A stretch of 64,000 bases of DNA from Cyclobacteriaceae bacterium. Lineage in GTDB: Bacteria > Bacteroidota > Bacteroidia > Cytophagales > Cyclobacteriaceae. The notes below the pieces were generated by a model. It searched no databases. It worked only from the letters and a program-made list of their open reading frames with translations, and had not been told where the DNA came from. Both the position numbers and the translations under genes were made by a program. Within the stretch, counting starts at the first letter, position 1. The number at the start of each line of letters is the position of its first letter. The stretch covers positions 1,116,001 to 1,180,000 of the forward strand of contig JABFRS010000002.1 of NCBI GenBank assembly GCA_013141055.1, read 5' to 3'. Positions 45,524 to 54,507 of this stretch are shown here, piece after piece.

Positions 45524-45620
45524 ACCCACAACGTTTGGCTATAAGCCGTTTGTTCACCCAAAATAAAAATAAACAAAAGAAGGCAAATGACTTATAGACT
45601 TTGAAAGCACCTGTGCCGCT
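45524..45620 (-). repeat. attC-like palindrome A
   Basis: Between the amidohydrolase and the alpha/beta hydrolase. The inner arms pair (ctataag near 45539-45545 with cttatag near 45591-45597). The coding-strand 3' arm is intact (ACGTTGTGGG, crossover at 45531/45532). The 5' arm is degenerate but still contains agcacc, the complement of the 3' arm of the next site (B). Confidence 0.7.
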
Positions 45621-45634
45621 CAGTCTCTATGTTG

Positions 45635-47080
45635 TCACTGATCCGCTGAATTAACCTTCCGAACTATTTGTTCAAGAGAGTCATTTAATACAGTTGATTT
45701 GTAAAATTTACCTCTCAAGATAACGCCATCGATTTGTCTGGTATTATTAATATTCTCCATTGGATTAGCATTAAGTATTATGAGGTTAGCCTTTTTTCCA
45801 ATCTCCACCGTTCCAATATCCTTGTCTATTTTAAGGAATAATGCCGGATTGATCGTAGCCGTTTGAAGCGCCTCAAGGGGAGTGAAGGCAGCTTTTTCAA
45901 CAAAAATTTGCAATTCGTCATGCAAACTAAAACCCGGATAACAATTGGGATTTGGATAATCAGTACCGGCAAGAAATTTTACTCCTCCGTCTTTTAATGG
46001 TTTGAAGAGGGAGGTGGTTTGCTTGTACCAATCACTTTCTATCTTTCTGTTCCTGACGCGCGACTTTATACTTGCGGAATCATTGCGTGGCGCCCAATCT
46101 TCAACTGCAAAGTCGGGCATATAATTGATTATGTCCTTGGGTTTGAAGTCAGGCGTTGATCGATCGATAGAACCTTCAGCAGCAATCATAGTCGGACATA
46201 CCCAGGAGTTACTTTTTGCTAAGAGTGACATTAGATTCGATAATTGCGAAGGATCATATGTTTTATTCTCAAACCGCATCCTGGTTAGGAAGGTTGAAAA
46301 TTTACGCGCCTCAAAAAGAGAATCATTTTTATCGGTAGCGTGCATCGCTGTAGTCAGGAACTCTTTTTCCGTGGAACAGAAATCCAGAACTCCAAAAAAA
46401 TGATCCAGTGTTCCTTGACCTGCATGGATTGCCTCTTCAAGAGAAATTTTAAAAGGAATATGTCCGCTAAAGGGAATTCCTTCTTTTCTGCATTCATCGG
46501 CAATGGCGAAATAGACATCTCTCTCCAAATAGGAATACACTTTTATAAAATCAGCGCCCTGAGCTTTTTGATTCCTGACAAGGGCTCTTGCTTTCTCGGG
46601 AGAGTCGGCAATATCAGAACCTTTCCATAATGGCGGATTACCATCAATGATTGCCCCCGAACTTATAATATCCGGCCCTGTCACTAATCCACTGTCAATC
46701 TTGTTTCGAATTTTTTTAACTTCCGCGGGGTCACCCCACATTTCCCTGATTCCGGTTATTCCATTAGCCATCAGTAACGGAAAGAATTCTTTGTAGGCCC
46801 ACCAAGTGTGCGTATGCATATCCCACAATCCGGGTATTATAAATTTATCTTTGCCATCAATAATTTCGTTCGCTAAATACGTATTGTTTTCCCTGTGTGG
46901 TATAATCTCCGTTATTCTATCCTGAATAATTACAATATCCATCGAATTATCAATAGTGCCATCCAAAACATCGATCACTGCAATATTTTTAATGATCAGG
47001 TCCCCTTTGAGTTCCTTTGAACATCCAGCGATTATAAAAATGAGAATGATAGCAGATAAGATGATCAGATGTTTCTTCAT
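45635..47080 (-). CDS. Amidohydrolase-family lipoprotein (cassette)
   Basis: This 481-residue protein has a lipoprotein signal (LSAIILIFIIAGCSKELKGD). The amidohydrolase core has IPGLWDMHTHTWWAYKEFFP (HxH metal ligands), ADFIKVYSYLE, PFSGHIPFK and FLAGTDYPNPNCYPGF with the metal-ligand Asp. It is an imidazolonepropionase/dipeptidase-like hydrolase of an unknown amide or lactone, tethered to the membrane. It is the longest cassette; attC-A follows and attC-B precedes. The ATG at 47080 is chosen because longer frame residues do not belong to a signal. Confidence 0.87.
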   Translation of the reverse strand: MKKHLIILSAIILIFIIAGCSKELKGDLIIKNIAVIDVLDGTIDNSMDIVIIQDRITEIIPHRENNTYLANEIIDGKDKFIIPGLWDMHTHTWWAYKEFFPLLMANGITGIREMWGDPAEVKKIRNKIDSGLVTGPDIISSGAIIDGNPPLWKGSDIADSPEKARALVRNQKAQGADFIKVYSYLERDVYFAIADECRKEGIPFSGHIPFKISLEEAIHAGQGTLDHFFGVLDFCSTEKEFLTTAMHATDKNDSLFEARKFSTFLTRMRFENKTYDPSQLSNLMSLLAKSNSWVCPTMIAAEGSIDRSTPDFKPKDIINYMPDFAVEDWAPRNDSASIKSRVRNRKIESDWYKQTTSLFKPLKDGGVKFLAGTDYPNPNCYPGFSLHDELQIFVEKAAFTPLEALQTATINPALFLKIDKDIGTVEIGKKANLIILNANPMENINNTRQIDGVILRGKFYKSTVLNDSLEQIVRKVNSADQ

Positions 47081-47140
47081 TGTGTTTGTATCATAAAGCA
47101 TATGATGCACCTAGTTCCAAAATAATTCTGTATTAGTATT

Positions 47141-47236
47141 GGTGCTAACGTTCGGCTATAAGGCGTGGCGGCACACCAAAACATAAAATTAAATGTCAAC
47201 CGTGCCGCCACGCCTTATAGCTTATGTTGTGCGCCG
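47141..47236 (-). repeat. attC-like palindrome B (perfect 19-bp inner stem)
   Basis: The inner arms at 47156-47174 and 47202-47220 are perfectly complementary over 19 bases. Crossover is at 47148/47149. The 5' arm (GTTGTGCGC, plus-strand sense) matches the 3' arm of site C (GTTGTGAGC) better than its own (GTTAGCACC). Confidence 0.85.
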
Positions 47237-47256
47237 GGTATTAGCCGCAAAATAAC

Positions 47257-48243
47257 TCATTTGTCAATTTCAAAATAGTCTTTAAACGCTCTCTCATTGA
47301 AATCGCTCAAATCAATTCTCTCAACTAGGTAGTCAAAATTCTTATGGGGATACTTCGTTATTGCGACTTTTACATATGTACTGAAATAGTCTCGTTTCCA
47401 ACGGCCCAAAGCTTTTGTCGTTTTGTTGAAAATTTTAATTGTCCCTTTTTGCTCTGGAAACTTAGCTAAGGCCTGGTAAATCATTCTCAATTCAGAGTAA
47501 TTGTAATGAGTTCTGTACCACCGTTTATAAAATTGCTTTGTCAAAGGCTTGAAAAAGTCCTTGTCTGGGAATTCGCGAATTGCTTTAAAAGCAAAATATT
47601 GGTTGCCTTTGCTATCCAATGTCTTTAGAATAAGATCCTTATCAGCTTCTCTCTGAAATCGAGCTAATGTTACCAATGCGTCACCATTTCCTAGTTCAGC
47701 ATATTGCCTAATGATCCCATAATATTTGTCAGTTGCAGGAAGTTCATTTAATAGTGCATTTTTATAAGCCAGTTGGATAGATTGATCTATTAATATCATA
47801 CTGTCAAGACGAAGCCTCTCACTGGGTGAGATATTGCCAGGAAGAATCGAGGATAAATAGAAATCACTTACTTTTCGAGAATAGATAACATCAAACGCCT
47901 GAATCCCTATCGATTCATTGTCTTTTAGATTATTAACTAGGATTTCGAAAATCTTATTGCTATTTGCTTCGTTTAGTGCCATAAAGGAATAGCATCTCAC
48001 AATTTTGCTCTCATGAGACATATTGTCAATAAGTTCTTGTTCCGAAGCGAATTGCTTTAATTTTTGATAATTGATCCAGAGGTTAGAAACTTCACCGCTA
48101 ATACCGATCTTTTCATATTGAAGTATGTGTCTCTGTGCTATGTCATTTACGATGCTTTTAACTGAATCGGAATTGTTTTGACATACTGTTTCAGTATAAT
48201 TTATTATCAATAAAACAGTTAGAAGAGAGATCCTTAGTGCCAT
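47257..48243 (-). CDS. Secreted hypothetical helical protein (cassette)
   Basis: This 328-residue protein has a signal peptide (LLTVLLIINYTETVCQ). The remainder is alpha-helical with HEAT-like spacing (IVRCYSFMALNEANSNKIFE, ILVNNLKDNESIGIQAFDVI, NGDALVTLARFQREADKDLI). No enzyme motif is visible. It is the cassette between attC-B (downstream) and attC-C (upstream). Confidence 0.65.
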   Translation of the reverse strand: MALRISLLTVLLIINYTETVCQNNSDSVKSIVNDIAQRHILQYEKIGISGEVSNLWINYQKLKQFASEQELIDNMSHESKIVRCYSFMALNEANSNKIFEILVNNLKDNESIGIQAFDVIYSRKVSDFYLSSILPGNISPSERLRLDSMILIDQSIQLAYKNALLNELPATDKYYGIIRQYAELGNGDALVTLARFQREADKDLILKTLDSKGNQYFAFKAIREFPDKDFFKPLTKQFYKRWYRTHYNYSELRMIYQALAKFPEQKGTIKIFNKTTKALGRWKRDYFSTYVKVAITKYPHKNFDYLVERIDLSDFNERAFKDYFEIDK

Positions 48244-48304
48244 TAAGCAACGTCTATGATTTTGTTTTGCCTATGTAAACTGAAACTGTTATGTCTGAGC
48301 CTTG

Positions 48305-48436
48305 CTCACAACGTCTAACTAAAAGCAGTTGCGGGATTTTGAAATCATTTCTGTCCCACGTGTGCGAACTAAATTTAGTAATTACTTTTCATTGGAAAAC
48401 GTTTCCCCGCAATTGCGTTTAGCTTTTGTTGCCGGC
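48305..48436 (-). repeat. attC-like palindrome C
   Basis: The inner arms (ctaaaagcagttgcggg from 48319 with cccgcaattgcgtttag near 48405-48421) match with two mismatches. Crossover at 48311/48312. The 5' arm GTTGCCGGC is at 48428-48436 and resembles the 3' arm of site D (GTTAGCGG), not its own (GTTGTGAGC). Shares arms with site D. Confidence 0.8.
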
Positions 48437-48468
48437 AATTAATTTATATCAGCTCCCTTTCTCTGAGA

Positions 48469-48621
48469 TCATTTATCAATAACCAAAAAATAGCTTTCTG
48501 TCTGAAAGGAAAGGCATACAGAAGTCGTTTTATTGCCTGCTGTCATTTTGTTGTCTTTAGAATTGTTGCAGCTTGTGATTGTCAAAGCTGACAAAGTGAT
48601 TAAAATTGTTATCTTTTTCAT
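48469..48621 (-). CDS. Small putative lipoprotein (50 aa, cassette)
   Basis: This frame reads MKKITILITLSALTITSCNN, with a lipobox (ITSC) at residues 15-18, followed by a short polar tail. It lies 9 bp after the crcB stop in the same cassette. It is too small to be recognised by length. The DNA after its tail continues in another frame as a hydrophobic, Arg-rich stretch (RLLYAFPFRQKAIFWLLIND), so it may be a truncated or frameshifted larger protein. Confidence 0.4.
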   Translation of the reverse strand: MKKITILITLSALTITSCNNSKDNKMTAGNKTTSVCLSFQTESYFLVIDK

Positions 48622-48630
48622 TTGTCAAGA

Positions 48631-49005
48631 TTAAATTCTCTCCGCAATAAAAAGTCCGCTAAAGGTTGCCGTTACACAAAGCAAAATGCTACCAAGTATG
48701 TAAAGCACTAAACTTGTGTTGTGTCCTTGTTGGAAAAGTGTCAGTGTTTCGCTACTGAAAGTCGAGAAGGTGCTAAAGCCACCGCAAAAGCCAACTGCTA
48801 AAAACAGCCGTGCTGTCGGTGAAAGAATTTGTTTGTGGTCAGCAAGTCCGATTACAAAACCCAAAATGAAACAAGCCACCACATTAACTACAAAAGTCCC
48901 GAATGGAAAATTATGGTTGTGCCAACTGTCAACCCACTTACCAAGTCCGAACCGTGAAAGTCCGCCAAGTCCGCTACCAATAAATACTGCAATTAGTTCT
49001 TTCAT
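48631..49005 (-). CDS. crcB: Fluoride channel CrcB/Fluc (cassette)
   Basis: This 124-residue protein has four membrane helices and the Fluc signature: MKELIAVFIGSGLGGLSRFG, FPFGTFVVNVVACFILGFVI, LAVGFCGGFSTFSTFSSETL. It exports fluoride as an antiparallel dimer. The GGFSTFSTFSSE segment and the conserved Asn in FVVNV are pore elements. The frame is open to 49041, but the ATG at 49005 matches the family. The cassette also carries a 50-aa ORF. Confidence 0.93.
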   Translation of the reverse strand: MKELIAVFIGSGLGGLSRFGLGKWVDSWHNHNFPFGTFVVNVVACFILGFVIGLADHKQILSPTARLFLAVGFCGGFSTFSTFSSETLTLFQQGHNTSLVLYILGSILLCVTATFSGLFIAERI

Positions 49006-49048
49006 TTTATGTCCTGTCGTTTGAGTTTGCACTGTCGTCATAGCATGA

Positions 49049-49186
49049 CCGCTAACGTTTAGCTAAAAGCAGTTGCGGGTATAGAAACTGCTTCACTGTC
49101 CACTTTGTAGAATTAAAATTAGGTATTAAAAACTTTTTTACCACCACCGAGCCTAGCAATTGCGTCTAGCTTTTGTTGTGTGCTGT
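49049..49186 (-). repeat. attC-like palindrome D
   Basis: Its inner arms agctaaaagcagttgcggg (49061-49079) and gcaattgcgtctagct (49156-49172) are related to those of site C. Crossover at 49055/49056. The 5' arm (GTTGTGTGC) resembles the 3' arm of site E (GTTGGGTGG), not its own (GTTAGCGGT). Confidence 0.8.
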
Positions 49187-49207
49187 TGGGTTACTCAGTG
49201 CTCGATG

Positions 49208-49543
49208 TCATTTATCCTTTTGTTTCTTTTGTCTGAGTTTTGGTTCTGGCAATTCTTTAGCAGTTACCTTAACCAATTTTTTTAGCCAATCACGATCGTC
49301 CAATTTTTCCGAAATTAAAAAACTTGGCTTTGCTCCTGGATACGGTGGCGCTTCAACAATGTTCCCGATAAATTGTCTCCCCGAAAGTGTGGGCTTAATA
49401 AATAGTTTATTGTCACATACAAGGCCGAATAACTTGTTGTCAAAATACAGCCCATATTCGCCAAACATTTTCTTGCAGGTAACTTGTCCGGAGGTGTCAA
49501 TTTGGTCAAGGATATAGTCTACAAATTTCTGGTCTGATGCCAT
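49208..49543 (-). CDS. TfoX/Sxy N-terminal domain protein (cassette)
   Basis: This 111-residue protein is a single TfoX N-domain: FVDYILDQIDTSGQVTCKKM, FGEYGLYFDNKLFGLVCDNK, LFIKPTLSGRQFIGNIVEAP, SFLISEKLDDRDWLKKLVKV. TfoX proteins in gamma-proteobacteria are competence regulators, while single-domain versions elsewhere have unknown function. It has no C-terminal TfoX domain. attC-D follows and attC-E precedes. Confidence 0.85.
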   Translation of the reverse strand: MASDQKFVDYILDQIDTSGQVTCKKMFGEYGLYFDNKLFGLVCDNKLFIKPTLSGRQFIGNIVEAPPYPGAKPSFLISEKLDDRDWLKKLVKVTAKELPEPKLRQKKQKDK

Positions 49544-49645
49544 GGCAGTGAATTGTCAATGTCTACAAATGTGAAAGAATGTCTGTGGAATAAATGTCAA
49601 ATGGTTTATTTATTGAATTTTCGTATTCGATGTCCCTAGCCACGA

Positions 49646-49744
49646 GAGCCACCCAACGTTTGTGTATGTGACGTGGTGCTGGCAAAAATAAAAATTATTA
49701 TCTCCACCCCAGCACCATGGCGCATACACGGTGTTGCCAGCTGT
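49646..49744 (-). repeat. attC-like palindrome E
   Basis: Inner arms: gtgtatg...tggtgctgg (49662-49682) with ccagcacca...catacac (49709-49729). Crossover at 49656/49657. The 5' arm GTTGCCAGC is identical over 9 bases to the 3' arm of site F and not to its own (GTTGGGTGG). Loop region resembles that of site J. Confidence 0.85.
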
Positions 49745-49749
49745 AGCGC

Positions 49750-50208
49750 TTACAATCTTATTCCACTTTTTATTTGTGTCAGTTTGTACGTTTCTGTCTT
49801 AGGTAAATATTTGAAATAGAAAATGTAGGCTCCGTCAGCGAAGAATGTCATCCCATTACCTCTTTTCTCATGTGTCCCAATGGATAAAGTAACTTGGTTA
49901 CGAATTATTGTTAGTCCGCTGATTTCGAATAAAACATCATTATCACCAAAGTCCTTTGTTTTATAATCCTTCGTCTTGTCTTGTTTAACTATTTTGATGC
50001 TTCTAATTGTCTCCGGAAAATCTTGAATTGCTGACCAATCTGCCTTTAAAATTATTTTTTTTATTCTTTTTTCCTTCTCAATCTTCTTTATCAAAGAGTC
50101 CACCGAGTAATAAAACATTCCTGTCTTGTCAGCCGACAACGAATTGACAATCTGTCCAAAAGTCGTCTGCCAAATAATTGTCGTAAGTATTACTATTAGT
50201 AGTCTCAT
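49750..50208 (-). CDS. Secreted hypothetical protein (cassette)
   Basis: This 152-residue protein has a signal peptide (LLIVILTTIIWQTTFGQI). The mature part is beta-rich with Lys clusters (KKIEKEKRIKKIILK) and ends FYFKYLPKTETYKLTQIKSG. No family is recognised. It is a complete cassette between attC-E and attC-F. Confidence 0.6.
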   Translation of the reverse strand: MRLLIVILTTIIWQTTFGQIVNSLSADKTGMFYYSVDSLIKKIEKEKRIKKIILKADWSAIQDFPETIRSIKIVKQDKTKDYKTKDFGDNDVLFEISGLTIIRNQVTLSIGTHEKRGNGMTFFADGAYIFYFKYLPKTETYKLTQIKSGIRL

Positions 50209-50223
50209 CTGTCTCGCGCTATT

Positions 50224-50316
50224 GCTGGCAACGTCTAGCTATGAGGCATTGGCCTTACCTTAATTTTAAAAATAAACAAAAAAGGCCAATGCCTTATAGC
50301 TTGTGTTGGTGGCTGG
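50224..50316 (-). repeat. attC-like palindrome F
   Basis: The inner arms ctatgaggcattggcctt (50239-50256) and aaggccaatgccttatag (50282-50299) pair with one mismatch in 18. Crossover at 50231/50232. Its 5' arm GTTGGTGGC is identical to the 3' arm of site G over 9 bases; its own 3' arm is GTTGCCAGC. Confidence 0.87.
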
Positions 50317-50320
50317 CCTT

Positions 50321-50917
50321 TTAGTCGGTCACTAATAATGGATCAACCCTTTCGTATCTCAAAGCGTCAACTAGTTCGTTAATGTCCTGTTTTATAATCT
50401 CAATTTTCGGCACCCTTCCGAATTTCATTTTGGTCTTACATGTAAACCAAACTAGTCCGTCCCCCGAGTTGAAATCGTACTTTTTTGCAAGTCTGATGTA
50501 TAGTTCTTCTTGAGTCGCTTTTGGAATGATGAAAACATTTGTCCTAATCCAATCTCCAGTGTCAGCAGTGCTGTCGGGAAAGACCGTTATGTAGTACCCC
50601 TTGTAATGTCCGTTAAAGTTTTCTTCGTTCTCGTCTACTTTAAGTCCGAATTCTTGTAAGTCCAGAGTTTTTATTTTGTTAAAAAGTTTGACCAGTCGTT
50701 TTGGTCTATAAACTTCAAAGAACCAATGATAGATTCCACCGCATATAAGCGATGTCCCAATTATTAGTCCTATTAGTAAACTAAGTCCATTGGCACTAAT
50801 TGTTCTTTCTCTTTTGGGCTCATCAAAAAGTCCAAACGCAAATCGGACTCCAAATATTAATAACATTGCTATCAGCCACGGTCGATAATATGTCGTAAAC
50901 TTTTCTTTTGTCGTCAT
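50321..50917 (-). CDS. Membrane hypothetical protein (cassette)
   Basis: This 198-residue protein has two membrane segments near the N-terminus (WLIAMLLIFGVRFAFGLF, and GLSLLIGLIIGTSLICGGIY). A soluble C-terminal part follows (YYITVFPDSTADTGDWIRTN, WFTCKTKMKFGRVPKIEI). No family is recognised. Cassette between attC-F and attC-G. Confidence 0.6.
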   Translation of the reverse strand: MTTKEKFTTYYRPWLIAMLLIFGVRFAFGLFDEPKRERTISANGLSLLIGLIIGTSLICGGIYHWFFEVYRPKRLVKLFNKIKTLDLQEFGLKVDENEENFNGHYKGYYITVFPDSTADTGDWIRTNVFIIPKATQEELYIRLAKKYDFNSGDGLVWFTCKTKMKFGRVPKIEIIKQDINELVDALRYERVDPLLVTD

Positions 50918-50928
50918 GTCCTAAAGGC

Positions 50929-51066
50929 TTGCCACCAACGTTGGTGTATGAAACGTGGCTGGGCTTTCGAAGCGCGTCACTGTCCCACGACACCAAACGT
51001 ATTTTGAAAAACTAAACTACAAAATTACACTGAACCATTGATTATGCACATTGTTGGCAGCTGGCC
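50929..51066 (-). repeat. attC-like palindrome G
   Basis: The inner pairing is weak (gtgtatgaa with tgattatgcac), but the loop carries a 68-nt block nearly identical to that of site K, including cgaagcgc and tgtcccacgacaccaaacg. Crossover at 50938/50939. The 5' arm GTTGGCAGC is identical to the 3' arm of site H over 9 bases; its own is GTTGGTGGC. Confidence 0.8.
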
Positions 51067-51095
51067 GTTTTAACTCAACTCTTTTTCTTTGCTTG

Positions 51096-51773
51096 TCAGT
51101 CCCGAGTAATCTTTAGGTCGGAAAAAAAACCTTCCGTCCCAATATCAACCCATAGTCCAACTGTCCCTGAGTTATTGTCCCCGTGTTTTAAGTCGTTTAC
51201 AATTAGTGTCGGTTGTTTGTTTTCGTTGAGAAACAGCTTGGCTTGTTTGCCCTTAACTTCAATTTTAATTTTTATCCATTCGTTTAATCCCATGTCGGCA
51301 TACGACTCATATTCCCCAGGGAACTCTTTTCTCAGTCGCTCAAATTTGAAGTCAGGAAAGGAAAAGTATTGAGTCGAACGATTTCTTCTTAGTTGATTGT
51401 CCGCTCGCCCATTTGTTGGGCGAAGGTAAATACACTCAAAATTTGAATTATTGTCATTAATTCTAAAAGCAATTCCGATAAAACCTCGCGCAAAATCAGG
51501 AGCATCTTTCAAAAGTCGGCTTTGTACCTTTACTTCAATTATGCCGTTTTTGAAGTCCGTCCCTTTTATTTTTATAAAAGTCGGTTCGTCAAACTCTTTT
51601 ACGGTGGAGTCTTTGATAACCTTCACCGTCTCCTTTCCGGTCAGTCTTTCTATGGCCATGGTCACATTAACCAATTCGAGTCTGCTTTTGTCAAACTTGA
51701 TTGTCTGTGAGAACACCATAGTCGAACTGAATAATGTCCAAGTAGTCAATATGTATTTTATCGCTCTTATCAT
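51096..51773 (-). CDS. Secreted concanavalin-like protein (cassette), paralogue of the 19371 gene
   Basis: This 225-residue protein has a signal peptide (IKYILTTWTLFSSTMVFSQT) and the sandwich domain DFKNGIIEVKVQSRLLKDA, GFIGIAFRINDNNSN, FECIYLRPTNGRADNQLRRN and GTVGLWVDIGTEGFFSDLKI. Blocks line up in order with the chromosomal protein at 19371-20033, so they are one family. Function is not assigned beyond a beta-sandwich. The ATG at 51773 is preferred. Confidence 0.75.
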   Translation of the reverse strand: MIRAIKYILTTWTLFSSTMVFSQTIKFDKSRLELVNVTMAIERLTGKETVKVIKDSTVKEFDEPTFIKIKGTDFKNGIIEVKVQSRLLKDAPDFARGFIGIAFRINDNNSNFECIYLRPTNGRADNQLRRNRSTQYFSFPDFKFERLRKEFPGEYESYADMGLNEWIKIKIEVKGKQAKLFLNENKQPTLIVNDLKHGDNNSGTVGLWVDIGTEGFFSDLKITRD

Positions 51774-51807
51774 TTTTTGTCGTATGTTACTTTGTCCAAA
51801 ACGGCTT

Positions 51808-51946
51808 GCTGCCAACGCTAGTCTATAAAACGTATGCGTTTAAATACCTACATCTTTGTCCCGCGTTGATAAATAAATTTAAATGCACAAACGTTAAGAA
51901 TCTACAATACAGCATATGTTTTATAGACATTGTTGTGGCTCGTGCC
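51808..51946 (-). repeat. attC-like palindrome H
   Basis: The inner arms gtctataaaacgtatgc (51821-51837) and gcatatgttttatagac (51912-51928) pair with one mismatch in 17. Crossover at 51815/51816. The 5' arm GTTGTGGC resembles the 3' arm of site I (GTTGGTGGC, one base less), rather than its own (GTTGGCAGC). Confidence 0.85.
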
Positions 51947-52476
51947 TACTCAAAATAATCCTCTCGGGTTGCGACTCCTGTGTTGACTCTATATATTTTT
52001 GGAAAGCCGTCCAAATAAATCACGTCTAAGATTTGTCCTTTTTCAATTTCATTTTTCTCATCCTCCTCCCAGTTTGTAATATAGCGTACACTGTCCACAT
52101 AGTACTCTAGTTGAACTGCCCAGTAGTCTGGTCCCTTTCCACTTTTATACTCCTTGTCAATGACAGTTCCAGTTGTCCATAGTCCATCGTATTTTAATTC
52201 TTTTAATTCTCTGTCTTGATGGTAAAGACCAAAGGTGAATCCGTTTAAGGGAATTGAAATTAACAATATGCACTGGACTACCCACGATGCAGAGATAATT
52301 CTTTTAAGTCCATTGTAGAGACATACTGGAATAAGGATAAAAATCACTCCAAGCATGCAAATCCATTTAATCCACTCCATGTCAGAGTACATTAATTCTC
52401 TCGGCATAAAAAAAATAAAAAATTCAAGTCCGATGGCGATTACTAAAAATAAAATGGATTTTAAATTGTTCGTCAT
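51946..52476 (-). CDS. Membrane hypothetical protein (cassette), DUF3592-like tail
   Basis: This 176-residue protein has three to four membrane helices in its first 90 residues (SILFLVIAIGLEFFIFFMPR and WIKWICMLGVIFILIPVCLY among them). The soluble tail GTVIDKEYKSGKGPDYWAVQ, LEYYVDSVRYIT and KGQILDVIYLDGFPKIYRVN resembles DUF3592. No function is assigned. Cassette between attC-H and attC-I. Confidence 0.6.
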   Translation of the reverse strand: MTNNLKSILFLVIAIGLEFFIFFMPRELMYSDMEWIKWICMLGVIFILIPVCLYNGLKRIISASWVVQCILLISIPLNGFTFGLYHQDRELKELKYDGLWTTGTVIDKEYKSGKGPDYWAVQLEYYVDSVRYITNWEEDEKNEIEKGQILDVIYLDGFPKIYRVNTGVATREDYFE

Positions 52477-52524
52477 GTATGACTATGTCTGATTACTTTA
52501 CGATGTCATTGTCTAAAGGCATGT

Positions 52525-52608
52525 GCCACCAACGTCTGGCTATGAGCCGTTGTTTTGGCCTTTAAAAATAATTAATAAAACAATGGCTTATAGCTTTTGT
52601 TGTGGGCA
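52525..52608 (-). repeat. attC-like palindrome I
   Basis: The inner arms gctatgagccgttgtttt (52539-52556) and aaaacaatggcttatagc (52577-52594) pair with two mismatches. Crossover at 52532/52533. The 5' arm GTTGTGGGCA is identical over 10 bases to the 3' arm of site J; its own is GTTGGTGGC. Confidence 0.87.
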
Positions 52609-52618
52609 GCGGGCACCA

Positions 52619-53146
52619 TTAGCCATTGTTAATCGTAGAATCCTTCACGATATCCATCTCCTTTAAAATCCTTCGTTTTAATTCTTTTGATTCTTTTAGA
52701 GATTTTAAACATCGCTCAAATAACTCAAGTTTGTCCGATGGAACGAACTCATAACCAACAACTATGGCATTAACTCTTTGCTCTTTGAAGAAAGTAGAAT
52801 TAAACATCCCTTTTTTAATTGGCTTTGTGTTGGGCGTCATCGTTGTGTCGCCAATCTGAATTCTGATTAGAGCATTCAACGCTCCCCATGTATATTGATT
52901 AGTTATAAAAATGTCAGAGCCGTCTTTATACACCACATGAATTTTTCTCTCCCATTCTTCCCAGCCCTCCATTTTCTTTCCATCATAAGGAATGATTTCT
53001 CCTCCAAGTGGAACCTCTATAGTATAAGCTAAGAACTCGTCATTAAATTCAGAATACCCCCAAAACTCAATTGCTTGGGTCTCTGCTTCCTTCTCCCCAC
53101 AGGAGACAAGTAAAATAAATGTGATTATTAAATTGGTTAACCTCAT
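52619..53146 (-). CDS. Putative lipoprotein (cassette)
   Basis: This 175-residue protein has a lipoprotein signal (RLTNLIITFILLVSCGEKEA, lipobox LVSC). The mature part is soluble with FWGYSEFNDEFLAYTIEVPL and VNAIVVGYEFVPSDKLELFE. No family is recognised. The ATG at 53146 precedes the signal; the frame is open to 53167. Cassette between attC-I and attC-J. Confidence 0.6.
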   Translation of the reverse strand: MRLTNLIITFILLVSCGEKEAETQAIEFWGYSEFNDEFLAYTIEVPLGGEIIPYDGKKMEGWEEWERKIHVVYKDGSDIFITNQYTWGALNALIRIQIGDTTMTPNTKPIKKGMFNSTFFKEQRVNAIVVGYEFVPSDKLELFERCLKSLKESKELKRRILKEMDIVKDSTINNG

Positions 53147-53161
53147 TTTTCTATTGGAGTT

Positions 53162-53255
53162 GCCCACAACGTTTGTGTATATGACGTGGCGCTGGCAAAA
53201 TTAAAAATTAATATCTCCACTCCAGCGCCATGGAATATACACGGTGTTGTGGGCC
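53162..53255 (-). repeat. attC-like palindrome J
   Basis: The outer and inner arms (gcccacaacg with gttgtgggc, gtgtatat with atatacac, ggcgctgg with ccagcgcc) pair strongly. Crossover at 53169/53170. The 5' arm GTTGTGGGCC agrees over 10 bases with the 3' arm of site K; its own 3' arm differs at the last base. The loop resembles site E. Confidence 0.87.
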
Positions 53256-53256
53256 G

Positions 53257-53640
53257 TTATGGGTCAATAACCCACAATGTTGTGTCCAATACACTTTCTC
53301 GATTTTGAATTAATGAGTCCGCGCTTATTTGTTTTATCCTGTATCTCAAGTTGTGATCGATGCTGATATTTATTACTTCGTCAATTAATTGTGAGTCCCT
53401 GTTCTGTAAATAGTCGTCAAGTAGTCTGTTTGCTAGTCTCATGTATGCCTGATCAGTCAACTCTTCATTTGTCGGACGATGTCTGGAATTGGAAAGTGCT
53501 TTTCCCATTAAGTATTGTCGGTACTTAATGCTGTGGCCTCTATGAATTAAGACTTTTTCATACTCTGGATTCAACACGACAATTGTCACCAGTCCGATGA
53601 AAATTATTGAAGTCGTCAATAGTATCGTCTTTCTTTTCAT
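53257..53640 (-). CDS. Small membrane-anchored hypothetical protein (cassette)
   Basis: This 127-residue protein has an N-terminal membrane segment (TILLTTSIIFIGLVTIVVLN) and a short soluble tail with RGHSIKYRQYLMGKALSNS and ADSLIQNRESVLDTTLWVID. No family is recognised. The ATG at 53640 is chosen because the frame to 53721 runs through attC-K. Cassette between attC-J and attC-K; the smallest of the array. Confidence 0.55.
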   Translation of the reverse strand: MKRKTILLTTSIIFIGLVTIVVLNPEYEKVLIHRGHSIKYRQYLMGKALSNSRHRPTNEELTDQAYMRLANRLLDDYLQNRDSQLIDEVINISIDHNLRYRIKQISADSLIQNRESVLDTTLWVIDP

Positions 53641-53671
53641 TGCTATCTCCAAGGAGTCTCTCCGACATAAT

Positions 53672-53809
53672 GGCCCACAACGTTTGTGCATAAGCAGTGG
53701 CGGGAATTCGAAGCGCATCACTGTCCCACGACACCAAACGTATTTTGAAAAAATAAACTACAAATTTACACTGAACCCCGCCATTGATTATGCACTTTGT
53801 TGTGGGCCG
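53672..53809 (-). repeat. attC-like palindrome K
   Basis: Outer arms ggcccacaac / gttgtgggcc pair over 10 bases, and inner arms gtgcataa / ttatgcac and tggcggg / cccgcca pair. Crossover at 53680/53681. Its 5' arm GTTGTGGGCC equals the 3' arm of site L; here its own 3' arm is the same, so this site is not informative. Shares its loop with site G. Confidence 0.87.
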
Positions 53810-53810
53810 T

Positions 53811-54404
53811 TTAAGCATCCACCCCATAATAGTTGTCCAGAAAGTCACGAATCTCTGTCAACGGTTTTAAGTCGTCCGCAAAGTCATTTGATTCACTCAA
53901 ATTGTAAAACTCGTATCCTCTAACTTTGGTCACACAGTCATACTCTCCGATTAGATTGTCAATCAGCATTAAACAACCATATCCAATGTCACTTTTATTG
54001 TCATCGGTTAATGTCCCAGAAAATATTTGGATGTATAAATTGTCGTCCTCAGTTATTGGCAGAAACTTTAACTTTTTGGGGTCGAGTTCGATGCCTTTAA
54101 CTGTTATTGTAATCTTGTTAATGTTTTCCTTCGAAACAGGTTGTCGGAAAGCAACAAAGTTCCACTTGTCAATGGTTGGTGAGTGATTCACAATTTCCTG
54201 TACTATGTCAAAATTCTCTTCAACTCCGTCAGCTGAGATAGTCATGACTATAAGGTCCCCATGCTTCTCAAACTCAACTGCAAGTCCTGTCTGTATTTTT
54301 CTTAGTTCAATGAGTATACTGTCAATTAGGTCGTAGTCCCCGTCAGTAATCTTTCTTAATCCCGCTTGTTGCTTTGTAAACCAGTCCCAGAATTGTTTAA
54401 TCAT
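53811..54404 (-). CDS. Soluble hypothetical protein (cassette)
   Basis: This 197-residue protein has no signal peptide. It reads FWDWFTKQQAGLRKITDGDY, LRKIQTGLAVEFEKHGDLIV and IDKWNFVAFRQPVSKENINK, a soluble alpha/beta protein of a type seen in Bacteroidota cassettes and immunity-like clusters. Function is not recognised. The ATG at 54404 is preferred to 54434. Most upstream complete cassette, between attC-K and attC-L. Confidence 0.6.
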   Translation of the reverse strand: MIKQFWDWFTKQQAGLRKITDGDYDLIDSILIELRKIQTGLAVEFEKHGDLIVMTISADGVEENFDIVQEIVNHSPTIDKWNFVAFRQPVSKENINKITITVKGIELDPKKLKFLPITEDDNLYIQIFSGTLTDDNKSDIGYGCLMLIDNLIGEYDCVTKVRGYEFYNLSESNDFADDLKPLTEIRDFLDNYYGVDA

Positions 54405-54450
54405 ATTTTTGTTGTCCGTCTTTATCGTTAGCACTTCGCTGTCCGCCTAA

Positions 54451-54507
54451 ATGGCCCACAACGTTTGGCTATAAGCCACTAGTGGCCTATATATCTTTAT
54501 TGGATTC
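54451..54507 (-). repeat. Degenerate attC-like palindrome L at the 5' edge of the array
   Basis: The 3' arm is intact (GTTGTGGGCC, crossover 54461/54462) and an internal gccactagtggc palindrome forms a very short stem. The 5' arm (tttattgg) no longer matches. It marks the upstream edge of the array, next to a methyltransferase gene. Confidence 0.6.

Follow-up and report, generated by a model that had tools for sequence, protein, structure and literature searches.

A 64,000-nucleotide (nt) stretch of contig JABFRS010000002.1 of a Cyclobacteriaceae bacterium (here called the window) carries, at positions 45524-54507, eleven complete palindromic sites, A to K, each with both arms, and a half site L with a 3' arm only. 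The genes between the palindromes all lie on the minus strand, which is the sense of the array. Comparison of the arms, in the window and in related genomes, makes it very probable in our view that the region represents an integron cassette array, and that the enzyme serving such arrays in the relatives is a relative of the integrase IntI that lacks the I2 segment and bears a putatively HARP/XPB-like N-terminus. As far as open-access searches show, the I2-less integron appears to be a new integron variant: among the open-access papers listed, which leave aside subscription papers and preprints, none describes an I2-less integron or arrays of this kind in the class Bacteroidia.

Each cassette extends from the TT of one site to the G of the next. 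In the proposed mechanism, an excised cassette would become circular, bringing its own 5' and 3' arms together as a paired stem, and its attC site would fold into a hairpin of single-stranded DNA. Integration at G|TT would then separate the two arms, so that each would match the arm of a neighbour. In the relatives, the enzyme would be the I2-less recombinase encoded directly upstream of attI, in the direction of the array, a role assigned to it by position and kinship.

Arm matching and cassette movement

The original prediction held that the 5' arm of each palindrome is matched not by its own 3' arm but by that of its upstream neighbour, and the arm sequences it quoted were found in the window as given. 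The arms were anchored on AAC (5') and GTT (3'), the neighbour was the next site upstream in the sense of the array, and the chance level was set by 400,000 random pairings of the window's arms. Over columns 1-7 the 5' arms agreed with the neighbour's 3' arm at 69/77 positions and with their own at 47/77, and only 1 of the 400,000 shuffles of site order was as good, which bears the prediction out. Columns 4-9 gave 56/66 for the neighbour against 31/66 for self (7/400,000 shuffles reach 56), and columns 4-12 gave 69/99 against 38/99 (0/400,000).

Taken singly at columns 4-9, sites E, F, G and I match F, G, H and J at 6/6, as predicted, with self-matches of 2, 3, 4 and 4. The lean of A, B and D towards the neighbour was likewise recovered (6 v 0, 5 v 1 and 4 v 1). 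The predicted identities of J with K and K with L are real (6/6), but self-matches are also 6/6, so these two sites are uninformative at columns 4-9. The resemblance of H to I holds in local alignment (score 10 for the neighbour, 6 for self, with one gap needed), but in register amounts to just 2 v 1, and that of C to D fails (3 v 3). Over the 11 sites the neighbour thus has 8 wins, 3 ties and no losses at columns 4-9, and 9, 1 and 1 at columns 4-10. Beyond what the prediction described, the arm match restarts past a 2-nt break, with 45/88 at columns 12-19 in fixed register against 21/88 for self (14/400,000 shuffles), and a weaker excess is seen in free local alignment of columns 10-30 (55 against 51 for self; 6,841/400,000). 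The pairs E/F, F/G and G/H stay matched over 17-19 nt except at columns 10 and 11, which are their two mismatches.

A covariance model built from ten window sites was used to search the genomes of 146 relatives, with at most 22 candidates scored per genome, and found sites in 97 of them. Twenty stretches, drawn from the best 150 of 197 model matches, supplied 113 distinct adjacent pairs, in which the 5' arm agreed with the neighbour at 5.19 of 6 positions on average, with self at 2.98 and with other sites at 2.78; the neighbour was better in 96 pairs, worse in 12 and tied in 5 (0/20,000 shuffles). A second set, from loci of other genomes (89 matches; 8 loci from already sampled genomes were omitted), gave 42 pairs with 4.83 for the neighbour against 2.24 for self, the neighbour being better in 31, worse in 5 and tied in 6 (again 0/20,000). 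Neighbour exceeds self in 127 of these 155 further pairs.

The neighbour-arm rule itself is already known for integrons. Arrays beside classical IntI genes in other classes of the phylum follow it too (7 of 20 loci, which supplied 33 cassettes); the neighbour-matching pattern is therefore a property of integrons. These arrays were detected as arm chains by a strand-symmetric detector with both strands counted, for which shuffled sequence yields chains of two only; since it is the arm rule that picks out the chains, the comparison is independent only from column 10 on. A regular-expression search for classical attC beside the IntI loci returned no site, or 5-11 sites depending on threshold (0-2 in shuffles). 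According to a passage in PMC2727003, self-pairing in most attC reaches 9-11 consecutive nt.

Cassettes also recur as units. Comparison of 127 cassettes of the relatives gave 137 pairs with a full-length identity of 90% or more, and in 79 of these both 60-nt flanks are unrelated (<0.6 identity). Identity ends close to G|TT, continuing for 2-9 nt upstream (2-3 nt in 72/79) and 2-7 nt downstream (2-3 nt in 67/79), and in one pair 358 nt at 100% identity have different neighbours on both sides. The 79 pairs involve 19 cassettes, all in one relative, G042; 78 pairs belong to a single type, 357-360 nt long, and the remaining pair to a cassette of 943 nt, so that the evidence from duplicates is almost wholly that of one type in one genome. 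Five 20-kb stretches of G042 supplied 76 retained sites; at its loci L084, L085 and L086 the 357-360-nt cassette has no long open frame and occurs in many copies, both in tandem and dispersed. Crossover at G|TT with circle closure of a cassette's own arms, as originally suggested, is supported jointly by the window arm test, the 113 and 42 further pairs, the classical arrays, the cassette duplicates and the attI arm match described below.

An IntI relative lacking I2

Several relatives encode, beside their arrays, an IntI-related tyrosine recombinase of ~390 residues. Its best PDB match by sequence is VchIntIA (2A3V), and the alignment has 11 residues where IntI has 54, jumping from 2A3V residue 183 to 238. 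In 60/60 aligned members the spacing between fixed points is 61-63 residues, which leaves no room for the additional domain that in classical IntI carries helix I2 between K-beta and box II, and all six catalytic positions are retained. Helix I2 is regarded as necessary for the recognition of folded DNA. A second motif pair is separated by 57-59 residues in 52 of 54 parsable members (the two outlying gaps are 152 and 153; 26 of 80 members could not be parsed) against 100 in 14/14 classical IntI proteins, taken from 16 loci. Three members scanned with TIGR02249 scored 227.3, 221.3 and 225.5 bits, below the cut-off of 265, in which they differ from classical IntI. Stops listed for many matches to the family suggested broken genes; the genes are not regarded as broken here, since at 8 loci inspected the reading frame stays open as far as the normal C-terminus or nearly so.

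The fold of the core is close to both Xer and IntI structures. VIA places 4a8e (XerA-type) at Z 22.1 (root mean square deviation (rmsd) 7.7, 257 aligned residues) and 2a3v_C at Z 20.5 (rmsd 3.7, 253 aligned), while Foldseek ranks 2a3v first. In a tree with 22 Xer rows, the family and IntI are grouped against XerC/XerD (support 100/99), IntI forms one group (100/99) and the I2-less rows form one group with moderate support (81/88, or 93/81 in another tree). XerC/XerD and archaeal XerA share with the I2-less integrase a catalytic core without I2, but in the tree the XerC and XerD proteins from the class fall into clades of their own. As Xer also lacks I2, a single gain of I2 on the IntI branch would be the simplest reading, although the tree alone may also accommodate a loss.

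An extra N-terminal domain (median 100 residues) precedes the SAM domain. Its predicted model has a predicted local distance difference test score (pLDDT) of 93.4. Profile search gave 4o66 as top match (E 0.0025); Pfam HARP matched 6/30 members (best 2.2e-5) and DUF5710 9/30 (best E 0.002). Foldseek also ranked 4o66 first (E 0.084), with XPB at rank 4 and no match under 0.001, and VIA ranked UvsW first (Z 7.0, rmsd 2.8, 66 aligned); eIF1-type folds scored Z 6 in that comparison and 4o66 Z 4.0 (rmsd 1.9, 49 aligned). By top ranks the domain is therefore similar to SMARCAL1 HARP, the DRD of XPB and UvsW, with weak scores, and a DNA-binding domain of this kind is offered as a lead. HARP and XPB domains read DNA structure.

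The family was found in 76/146 relatives (E <=1e-60) and in 99/198 sampled genomes of the class (E <=1e-80). By contrast, classical IntI (TIGR02249 above cut-off) was found in 1/146 relatives and 1/198 genomes of the class; in the phylum it is present in 84/296 genomes, 83 of them outside the class. A passage in PMC9024848 mentions only In0 for Bacteroidetes in an earlier survey, and then one complete integron in Salinibacter ruber. One classical-type IntI above cut-off, at locus L009 (G085:C13:43538-44470), has Q at the first catalytic arginine, misses the usual K-beta motif and looks degenerate from its sequence. Members of the I2-less family also occur outside Bacteroidota, in genomes labelled Delongbacteria, Neomarinimicrobiota, Edwardsbacteria, Cloacimonas/Cloacimonadota and Armatimonadetes (L142, L152, L154, L179, L180, L186 and L195), and an array site is present at L152.

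The position of the gene is strongly biased. Around 80 integrase loci, 85 sites lie downstream on the integrase strand and 1 elsewhere, in 269,774 bases scanned downstream and 679,479 upstream. Contigs end within 2 kb downstream of the integrase in 50/80 loci and upstream in 6/80, a clustering such as repeats would cause. Where at least 2 kb were available downstream (30 loci), a site was present in 21. In 22 of 23 loci examined, the interval separating the integrase stop from the first detected site holds a 9/9 partner of that site's 5' arm, at 41-117 nt after the stop in 16 loci and at 516-4325 nt in 6; in the latter an undetected site may lie between the integrase and the first detected one. 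In the relatives an attI thus sits next to the integrase, followed by the first cassette, as the arm rule predicts.

Site architecture and competing explanations

The sites differ in structure from classical attC. A one-sided bulge is missing in 159/181 I2-less bodies (six have one on the 5' side only) and in 7/8 window bodies, whereas it is present in 19/19 classical control bodies, oriented by gene direction; sites without a clamp or with an inner stem of fewer than 8 pairs drop out of these counts (21/202 I2-less, 6/25 classical, 2/10 window). One extrahelical base decides the strand, according to a passage in PMC2727003. The central spacer of I2-less bodies is uneven, 3 against 4 or 4 against 5 nt being the commonest lengths. 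Pairing of the circle arms covers 9-10 nt and is broken by a mismatch at column 11 in 154/155 pairs, with A on the 3' arm in 155/155 and C on the 5' arm in 122 (G on the reverse complement). Pairing resumes at columns 12-16 (0.73 to 0.66) in the relatives and at columns 12-14 (0.83 to 0.69) elsewhere. Within arm chains, column 11 matches in 0.79 of 33 classical cassettes, against 0.03 and 0.11 in two I2-less sets.

Folding of 158 site pairs, near-copies included, favours the circle form over the array form in 137 and shows no difference in 7, with a mean difference in free energy (ddG) of -7.56 kcal/mol; in the window it folds better in 9/11 sites. This stability could favour insertion over excision.

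Body pairs with an identity of 90% or more number 426: in 257 of them the gene ends are related and the arms identical, and in 169 the gene ends are unrelated. In these 169 the arms agree at 2.74/6, as in all site pairs (2.58), which indicates that bodies and arms are unlinked between genes. As crossover at G|TT necessarily leaves a body joined to its 5' arm, there must be gene conversion or some other exchange at AAC; gene conversion, which a passage in PMC1382264 raises for attC, is one account and the simpler. Recombination of both strands, permitted by missing extrahelical bases, was considered as an explanation for shared bodies and discarded, as no inverted site was seen among 86 once overlapping opposite-strand matches had been dropped. 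Near-identical bodies (90-100%) with random-like arms occur beside unrelated genes among the sites of L083-L091 and L122-L199, and in the window between E and J and between G and K.

The system described here shares with the classical integron (IntI TIGR02249, VchIntIA 2A3V) a cassette array behind attI, attC sites of R''-L''-L'-R' order, the G|TT crossover and cassette-specific arms, and its integrase is nearest by sequence to 2A3V and falls with IntI against XerC/D. It differs in the lack of I2, the few extrahelical bases, the extra N-terminal domain, an arm pairing interrupted at column 11 and then resumed, and a GTTRRRY R' box that fits 1 of 12 window 3' arms (E). Alternatively, a classical IntI carrying I2, now lost or working in trans, might have moved these cassettes, the I2-less recombinase being a bystander. 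The window's genome, which has no intact integrase, would allow this, as would the classical IntI genes of the phylum and one degenerate-looking classical copy in the same family. We regard this as very unlikely, given that classical IntI is so much rarer in the class than the I2-less family (1/198 against 99/198 genomes), that the I2-less gene stands immediately upstream of the sites, and that most sites lack the one-sided bulge found in every classical body counted in the phylum. It is rather less improbable, though still unlikely, that the I2-less enzyme acts on double-stranded sites like Xer and that hairpin pairing is incidental. A core fold as near to Xer as to IntI, the lack of I2 and the few extrahelical bases speak for such an enzyme; however, arm sequences vary among cassettes yet are complementary within each, which double-strand recognition would not require, and 85/85 downstream sites share one orientation. 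Dispersal of the palindromes by duplication or by a small transposable element, without a site-specific recombinase, would explain near-identical bodies beside unrelated genes, but it is scarcely credible in view of the match to upstream neighbours, the one-strand arrays behind an integrase and the duplicates bounded at G|TT. On the arm tests in window and relatives, together with these duplicates, we reject simple palindrome duplication, from which the original prediction had already thought the pattern hard to obtain.

Several results weigh against an integron with an I2-less enzyme. Neighbour loses to self in 17/155 further pairs and, in the window, at site C (3 v 4 at columns 4-10, the only loss there). 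No covariance-model site was detected in 9/30 integrase loci with at least 2 kb downstream; 22/181 I2-less bodies do have a one-sided bulge, and column 11 does match in 0.03 of 88 and 0.11 of 64 I2-less arm-chain cassettes. Sites C and D fold worse as a circle, as do 14/158 pairs of the relatives. Bodies common to unrelated genes without shared arms cannot be produced by G|TT crossover alone. The search of the window's genome for an intact I2-less integrase matched XerC, XerD and four other recombinases and found none, so the link between the window's array and the enzyme runs through the relatives and a relic of ~33 residues.

If an I2-less enzyme does serve these arrays, it would recombine a folded single strand, and its N-terminal domain or the column-11 mismatch might replace I2 and the extrahelical bases. 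More tentatively, we propose that a sister lineage of IntI, present in about half of the class, might recombine single-stranded hairpins without I2 and for the most part without extrahelical bases, with a structure-specific HARP-like N-terminal domain reading the strand, either as a state that preceded I2 or as an independent solution. Strand choice would then come from the conserved C.A mismatch together with the outer stem of the circle arms, or from the uneven central spacer, and insertion would be favoured over excision because the arms are fully paired only in the circle. Should this sister-lineage proposal be true, it would show how attC sites could predate I2. A passage in PMC4792948 treats the origin of I2 and attC as a chicken-and-egg paradox that intermediates could resolve, taking IntI itself as one, and a passage in PMC7790495 credits the gain of I2, seen as an innovation, with enabling IntI to recombine single strands, and notes that an ancestral sequence is lacking. 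A widespread IntI relative without I2, on sites mostly without the bases that I2 reads, makes this question testable. Surveys using classical IntI and attC models may also miss a large pool of cassettes in Bacteroidia.

The array of the window and its genome

At E <=1.8e-4 the genome has 23 sites, 11 in the window and 12 in three further small arrays on contig C1. A relic of the integrase (C1:340064-340162; 33 aligned residues with one stop, E 1.1e-6) lies directly upstream of an attI-like palindrome and of the C1:336798-339378 array; on inspection of the sequence, the first cassette of that array follows the arm rule. In the window, tblastn with 12 family members found no integrase relic. The palindrome of site L resembles the attI-like palindrome behind the C1 relic, so that the window's array probably started from an attI of this kind or from a truncated attC, one of which L would represent. 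As in CALIN (clusters of attC sites without an integrase), the window has sites and cassettes but no integrase, a relic being found beside another array, and it differs from these in that the sites are of the I2-less type. On sequence grounds, the window's array is interpreted as the leftover of an integron whose integrase was lost. Classical IntI was also sought in this genome and discounted: its 8 weak matches (XerD, XerC and other recombinases) are all under the TIGR02249 cut-off, and 14/14 control genomes match at the same threshold.

All sites and cassettes of the array lie on the minus strand. Site A (45524..45611), which has a degenerate 5' arm and the 3' arm GTTGTGGGT, has the lowest score of the full window sites (45.4 bits) and ends a cassette (45532..47148) coding for an amidohydrolase of 481 residues (Amidohydro_1). 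Site B (47141..47234) has a perfect inner stem of 20 base pairs, and its cassette (47149..48311) encodes a 328-residue protein without a Pfam match. Sites C (48304..48436) and D (49048..49183) both have long bodies. The cassette ending in C, the site that departs from the neighbour rule, codes for a CrcB-like protein (48312..49055), and its end arms do not match each other; ~190 nt between crcB and site C (48440-48630) are gene-free, and this cassette is perhaps a fusion of two. The cassette ending in D (49056..49656) encodes a protein with a TfoX N-terminal domain.

No Pfam match was found for the products of the cassettes ending in E (49657..50231; 152 residues), F (50232..50938; 198 residues), H (51816..52532; 176 residues), I (52533..53169; 175 residues as scanned) and J (53170..53680; 127 residues as scanned), the sites of which are at 49649..49741, 50224..50313, 51808..51940, 52525..52607 and 53162..53254, respectively. 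The cassette ending in G (site 50931..51061; cassette 50939..51815) has a weak 3keto-disac_hyd match, under cut-off, and that ending in K (site 53673..53807; cassette 53681..54461) has an open frame of up to 207 residues. The body of E is 89% identical to that of J over 83 nt and the body of G 93% identical to that of K over 76 nt, with different arms in both cases; the body of K is found at 80-97% identity across many genomes of the genus. Half site L (54454..54494) consists of a 3' arm and a short palindrome and scores 19.9 bits with the covariance model (E 0.23).

The motif TAnnTTTG, which we take to be the -7 promoter element of Bacteroidota, is found in the array sense in 45/156 bodies, including that of window site G (50939-51053), and antisense in 3 (shuffles: mean 11.5, maximum 20). 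Judging from this motif, some attC sites may carry a promoter for the next cassette.

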